From a virus, in IMG/VR virus record IMGVR_UViG_3300017917_003852, positions 1-64,000 of that record: DNA of 64,000 nucleotides; one strand, written 5' to 3'. The notes under the pieces are model-generated. The model had not been told where the DNA came from. It was given only the letters and a program-made list of their open reading frames with translations, and searched no databases. Position 1 is the stretch's first letter. Every line of letters starts with the position of its first letter. This document shows, one piece after another, positions 6,135 to 6,209 of the stretch. Made by a program: the position numbers and the translations under genes.

Positions 6135-6209
6135 TTAGCGATTTGCAATGTACATTGAAATCTCGAATCCGTATCTTAAGTCAGTCGCTGCTGGTGTAGT
6201 CCATGCCAT
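6135..6209 (-). CDS. pqqA: PqqA-like PQQ precursor peptide (24 aa)
   Basis: A 24-codon frame whose C-terminal 15 residues read [15 protein letters not shown]. This matches the precursor of pyrroloquinoline quinone, in which the Glu and Tyr of an E-x-x-x-Y motif (here E16 and Y20) are cross-linked by the radical SAM enzyme PqqE to form the cofactor. The preceding W-T-x-P-A-x-x-D region and the -ANR end are also typical. AAGGAG sits eight bases before the ATG, one of the strongest binding sites in the window, so the peptide is very likely made. No pqqB/C/D/E is visible here, so the host would have to process it. It lies behind DUF2061 and an inverted repeat, probably in the same transcript. Confidence 0.85.
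   Translation of the reverse strand: [24 protein letters not shown]

Follow-up and report, generated by a model that had tools for sequence, protein, structure and literature searches.

Stand-alone pqqA genes in phages as a probable source of the PQQ precursor peptide for the host

The window analysed here is a stretch of 64,000 bases and belongs to a viral fragment of 78 kb (78,424 bases). On its minus strand lies a pqqA frame of 24 codons (Table 1). The encoded peptide exceeds both curated cut-offs for PqqA, with 27.9 bits against 21.1 for PF08042 (E 2.4e-6) and 29.4 bits against 20 for the NCBIfam equivalog TIGR02107 (E 5.2e-7). In a six-frame search it was the single PqqA match of the 78,424-base record (E 1.7e-6). 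Glu16 and Tyr20 are both present with the spacing E-x3-Y. The first-pass annotation, made from the letters alone, had proposed the frame with this residue pair, a strong AAGGAG in front of it and its identity as PqqA. All of this was confirmed; the strand, which had not been given, is minus. The peptide shares its length, the W..P leader and the D-L-R-x-G-F-E-x3-Y core with bacterial PqqA of the two families. In contrast to bacterial PqqA, however, the gene is located on a phage and lacks pqqB-E, and the peptide deviates from its nearest bacterial counterpart by F13Y and T18S. Among the PHROGs, no family matching the peptide was found.

Table 1. Positions of pqqA, its putative signals and further features of the window. 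L numbers designate the loci compared.
Feature	Position	Strand	Basis
pqqA, 24 codons	6135-6209	minus	PF08042 and TIGR02107 above cut-offs; purifying selection
Ribosome-binding site AAGGAG	6217-6222	minus	Read from sequence; aligned in L063, L033, L039, L085
Dyad CATACTG-TTG-CAGTATG, 17 bases, extends to 8-bp arms	6234-6250	minus	Arm complementarity
TATAAT, candidate -10 element	6258-6263	minus	Accompanies the dyad in L063, L033, L039, L051
Terminator-like hairpin AGCCCTCTAGTAGGGCT and T-rich run directly 3' of pqqA	6099-6115	minus	Hairpin letters similar in L063, L085
Frame described as DUF2061	6259-6495		16.4 bits, DUF2061 cut-off 23.1
AhpD-like, GDSL-hydrolase-like and AhpC peroxiredoxin genes	6534-8307	minus	Syntenic in L063, partly in L051
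Convergent frame, repeated 'GKKHTPE...AK' motifs	5656-6117	plus	Conserved in L063
Metabolic island	546-5553		
tRNA with CTA anticodon	9625-9700	minus	ARAGORN call Pyl
Permuted tmRNA, betaproteobacterial type	14674-15084	minus	
Radical SAM protein	46103-47413	minus	45 bits; partial SPASM below cut-off
Nucleotide-sugar-dehydrogenase-like frame	50844-52070		

The AAGGAG is separated from the ATG of pqqA by 7 bases. The pattern of the dyad (ATACATAC...GTATG) occurs once in the window, compared with 0.01 expected occurrences. Its position is common to L063 (the closest relative of the window), L033, L039, L051, L085 and L079. The letters differ in most of these loci, but in the last five of them the arms have stayed complementary despite the changes. 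The dyad is a possible operator or 5' hairpin. No -35 element upstream of pqqA passed the consensus scan, and the calculated RNA fold of the transcript is not unusual (z -0.73). Since the AAGGAG, the terminator-like hairpin, the TATAAT and the dyad occur together, pqqA looks like a separate unit, presumably with a promoter of its own.

A linkage of pqqA to a DUF2061 gene had been suggested for the frame on the upstream side. The score of this frame is below the family cut-off, and in L063 an AhpD-like gene directly adjoins pqqA upstream and leaves no space for such a frame. It is therefore not a conserved partner of pqqA. Together with the GDSL-hydrolase-like and AhpC peroxiredoxin genes, the AhpD-like gene possibly forms an oxidative-stress cluster beside pqqA. 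On the other side, the repeated motifs of the convergent frame resemble those of homing endonucleases, and no Pfam match was obtained for it. Beyond it, the metabolic island contains a beta-keto acid cleavage enzyme, a short-chain dehydrogenase-like frame, an AMP-dependent ligase and a DctP-type solute-binding protein. The tRNA with the CTA anticodon is amber-suppressor-like; TAG still terminates 7 of the 71 large frames of the window. In several related phages a tmRNA is found only 8-116 bases from pqqA (L031, L034, L043, L075, L214 and L220). The nucleotide-sugar-dehydrogenase-like frame lies a few kb from the radical SAM gene.

Stand-alone pqqA is widespread and occurs in hundreds of related and unrelated phages. 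Three degenerate DNA patterns were used for gathering loci from IMG/VR. The first yielded 76 loci, all of them PqqA frames. The second, which does not force Glu or Tyr, gave 84 matches including 13 new loci, and the third, of the EMR type, at least 120 matches. Altogether, at least about 210 IMG/VR contigs carry a stand-alone pqqA. The flanks of the viral genes fall into about two dozen clusters at the DNA level, and the carriers include Kyanoviridae, Zobellviridae, P19250A-type phages and contigs of more than 350 kb. A tblastn search of 50,697 phage records detected the gene in nine isolated phages of Methylophilales, a methylotroph group (P19250A, Venkman, MEP301, MEP401, MEP402 and four Melnitz phages), and in a complete spring podovirus; with two further viral PqqA peptides as queries no additional phage record was found. 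An annotation of pqqA is absent from these ten complete genomes. The site itself was inspected in seven records: five have no annotation there, and in two nothing but hypothetical frames is annotated, on the strand opposite to pqqA. One apparent carrier, 'Acinetobacter phage MD-2021a' (L002, CAKLQF020000010.1 102204-114275), was excluded: this contig carries pqqABCDE together with ppk and fur and is plainly bacterial. It served as a positive control.

Because Glu and Tyr are built into the first and the EMR pattern, the conservation of these residues was judged solely on the unforced pattern. There, the E-x3-Y pair is kept in 84 of 84 viral matches, which bears out the expectation that Glu and Tyr are conserved in relatives. 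Trp, Pro, Arg, Gly, Phe, Glu and Tyr are invariant across 169 distinct gene cores, the bacterial control being among them, and third codon positions are the most variable (entropy 1.11 compared with 0.50 and 0.33). Since the patterns themselves had fixed several of these residues, the selection test was repeated on the codons left free by them, resulting in a pN/pS of 0.35 overall and 0.24 in the EMR set. Between the window and L063, pqqA has accumulated 13 synonymous changes at 13.8 sites and 3 nonsynonymous changes at 49.2 sites. L033, L039 and L051 encode an identical 21-residue core with 5 synonymous changes. The frame is intact in these close relatives, and the frameshifts that had been named as an argument against a functional gene were not observed. 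Viral pqqA is thus under purifying selection on the protein.

The remaining pqq genes are missing. As the first-pass annotation had supposed, no PqqB, PqqC, PqqD or PqqE over the cut-off was detected in the 78-kb record, and so pqqA does not occupy its usual, though not defining, position directly before pqqB. Neither PqqE nor a PQQ alcohol dehydrogenase passed its cut-off in any of the 50 records searched for them, among them about 49 virus records; weak partial matches to the PqqE model came from two records only. PqqC was absent from about 97 virus records, and PqqD and PqqB did not exceed their cut-offs in 42. In no virus record tested were pqqB, C, D and E together on one element, as a complete system for PQQ biosynthesis would require. 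PqqB, PqqC and PqqD were recovered by the same searches from bacterial genomes and from the bacterial contig mislabelled as a phage. Of the virus contigs tested, some are fragments; seven of the records are complete phages. The same gene, standing alone and with its Glu and Tyr preserved, is retained in both related and unrelated phages.

The host of the window phage is presumably betaproteobacterial. The tmRNA of the window fits the permuted betaproteobacterial family, and the nearest bacterial peptide, from Oxalobacteraceae and other Burkholderiales MAGs, is the same at 22 of 24 residues. The relatives of the DNA ligase and the exonuclease are too distant for naming a host, and a megablast search with the first 25 kb returned no annotated phage relative. 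In the order of Methyloversatilis (Burkholderiales in the wide sense) PqqA was found in 80 of 399 genomes. Streamlined genomes of 1.3 Mb carry two or three copies unlinked to pqqBCD, for instance G247 with pqqA at 102, 841 and 871 kb and pqqBCD at 710 kb; they also contain PqqC and PQQ alcohol dehydrogenases. We call these genomes methylotroph-type on the grounds of size, peptide, PQQ alcohol dehydrogenases and identity with the peptides of Methylophilales phages, and not of taxonomy. A 21-residue PqqA core from the 1.3-Mb genomes and one from larger multi-copy genomes match 25 and 21 viral copies, respectively. Six to eight scattered copies occur in the bacterial genomes G403, G432, G283 and G208, and those read in G403 and G432 encode the same PqqA peptide. 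Consequently, a stand-alone pqqA is also an architecture of such cells, which are likely hosts of pqqA phages. A methylotroph with five pqqA genes, three of them separate, has been described, and one separate copy, pqqA3, ranks among the highest in expression (PMC9851590).

One PqqA is spent per PQQ, while the enzymes of the pathway are reused, and for this reason the peptide alone could raise or sustain PQQ. According to published work, the leader of PqqA is bound by PqqD and a cross-link between Glu16 and Tyr20 is made by PqqE, after which further enzymes complete PQQ (PMC10906245). Probably, therefore, in agreement with the main proposal of the first-pass annotation, the phages supply the stoichiometric precursor to PqqD and PqqE of the host; among the readings considered, this one fits best. 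The peptide would be made during infection, its N-terminal leader would be bound by host PqqD, and host PqqE would link Glu16 to Tyr20. A host protease, PqqB and PqqC would then complete PQQ. The added peptide would thereby raise or sustain PQQ for periplasmic dehydrogenases of methanol or other alcohols, whose activity would contribute to the energy supply of the infected cell. We infer expression in infection, processing by host PqqE and an effect on the PQQ level and on phage yield.

Overexpression of pqqAB in Acetobacter increased PQQ by 29%, far less than the eightfold increase with the whole operon (PMC7936290). For Gluconobacter, the same article cites a changed PQQ level upon pqqA overexpression. 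The difference between 29% and eightfold indicates that dosage matters, and that the peptide is not always the main or only limit. For hosts with more than one pqqA copy of their own, the benefit may be small as long as host transcription continues. With some reservation we favour the more general proposal that phages of PQQ-dependent bacteria have convergently come to carry a 'substrate-only' auxiliary gene, which provides nothing but the consumable peptide of a ribosomal-peptide cofactor pathway, because after the arrest of host transcription PQQ is limited by the dosage of this peptide and not by the capacity of the enzymes.

Other explanations for the gene start from its origin. Host-like metabolic genes in the window, together with the lack of any detected capsid or terminase gene on the 78-kb fragment, could point to bacterial DNA misclassed as viral. 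This is highly improbable. The window contains phage-type exonuclease, Hsp20 and RF-1 proteins according to PHROGs and lacks pqqB-E. Moreover, it is syntenic with L063, a locus on the 354,959-base contig G031, in pqqA and the AhpD-like, GDSL, peroxiredoxin and ligase genes, and this contig encodes a T4-type Gp23 capsid protein (337 bits) and a terminase. Judged by this synteny, the carrier of pqqA in the window is a large T4-type phage. With complete isolates among the carriers, and with capsid and terminase genes on the 355-kb relative, pqqA sits on true virus genomes. Phages do acquire host DNA, and near-identical peptides exist in bacteria, so that a neutral hitch-hiker or a recently acquired, decaying host gene might be considered. 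Against this, synonymous change is close to saturation while hardly any amino acid has changed, the ribosome-binding site, dyad and hairpin are retained, and pqqA is present in very different phages; for practical purposes the selection test refutes it.

A conserved peptide could also act against the host pathway. As a decoy, phage PqqA would flood PqqD or PqqE and lower host PQQ, for example to stop methanol oxidation or redox stress. The invariant Trp and Pro of the leader in viral peptides would allow binding to PqqD, but a decoy need not keep the reactive residues, and Glu and Tyr are retained without exception in the unforced set. In addition, there are viral peptides that do not differ from host PqqA at all, and PqqE would turn them over rather than be blocked. 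We therefore regard the decoy, which the first-pass annotation had offered as an alternative, as unlikely. Still less likely is its other suggestion, modification of the peptide by the radical SAM enzyme at 46-47 kb, which would give a different, phage-specific product. The window does encode such a protein with a partial SPASM match. It is located 40 kb from pqqA, however, no match to the PqqE model was obtained in this record at E <= 0.001, and nearly all other pqqA phages, the complete isolates included, are likewise unmatched. No PqqD-type carrier is present, and small complete phages such as P19250A and Venkman have pqqA and no PqqE-model match. As a main reading, modification by a phage enzyme was therefore rejected, and supply of the precursor to the host enzymes is retained as the preferred explanation.

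Virus-borne pqqA has been noticed before. PqqA was reported alongside methanol dehydrogenase in the methylotroph phage population VP_266 from Lake Baikal (Coutinho et al. 2020, PMC7678222), and a reservoir study from 2026 lists viral pqqA, pqqD and pqqE (PMC13188868). The novelty claim of the first-pass annotation, which knew of no described virus providing only the precursor, was hence too strong. VP_266 resembles our phages in the viral location of pqqA and in the proposed aid to PQQ supply. It is a single case with methanol dehydrogenase, whereas here pqqA occurs in many phage types and, in every record tested, without a PQQ alcohol dehydrogenase or other pqq genes. In the Melnitz paper PQQ appears solely as an ingredient of the medium, and in the Venkman paper it is not mentioned. 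The extra pqqA genes of methylotrophs (the strain of PMC9851590; G247, G314, G403 and G432) are likewise single and far from pqqBCDE, and the EMR-type peptides are identical to viral ones; these copies are chromosomal, however, and not viral. Like other viral auxiliary metabolic genes, viral pqqA is host-derived and selected on phage genomes, but it differs from them in encoding the stoichiometric peptide substrate of a cofactor pathway and not an enzyme. Compared with the open-access literature, what is new is the precursor-only rule and its breadth, the copies that had been overlooked in isolates, and the resemblance to scattered host copies.

Annotation pipelines miss this gene of 24 residues. 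PQQ is required by abundant aquatic bacteria for the oxidation of methanol and other alcohols. Should its precursor commonly be replenished by phages, they would tune one step in the one-carbon cycle by means of a 24-residue gene. If the proposed role is true, a phage can push a pathway by the supply of a substrate instead of an enzyme.
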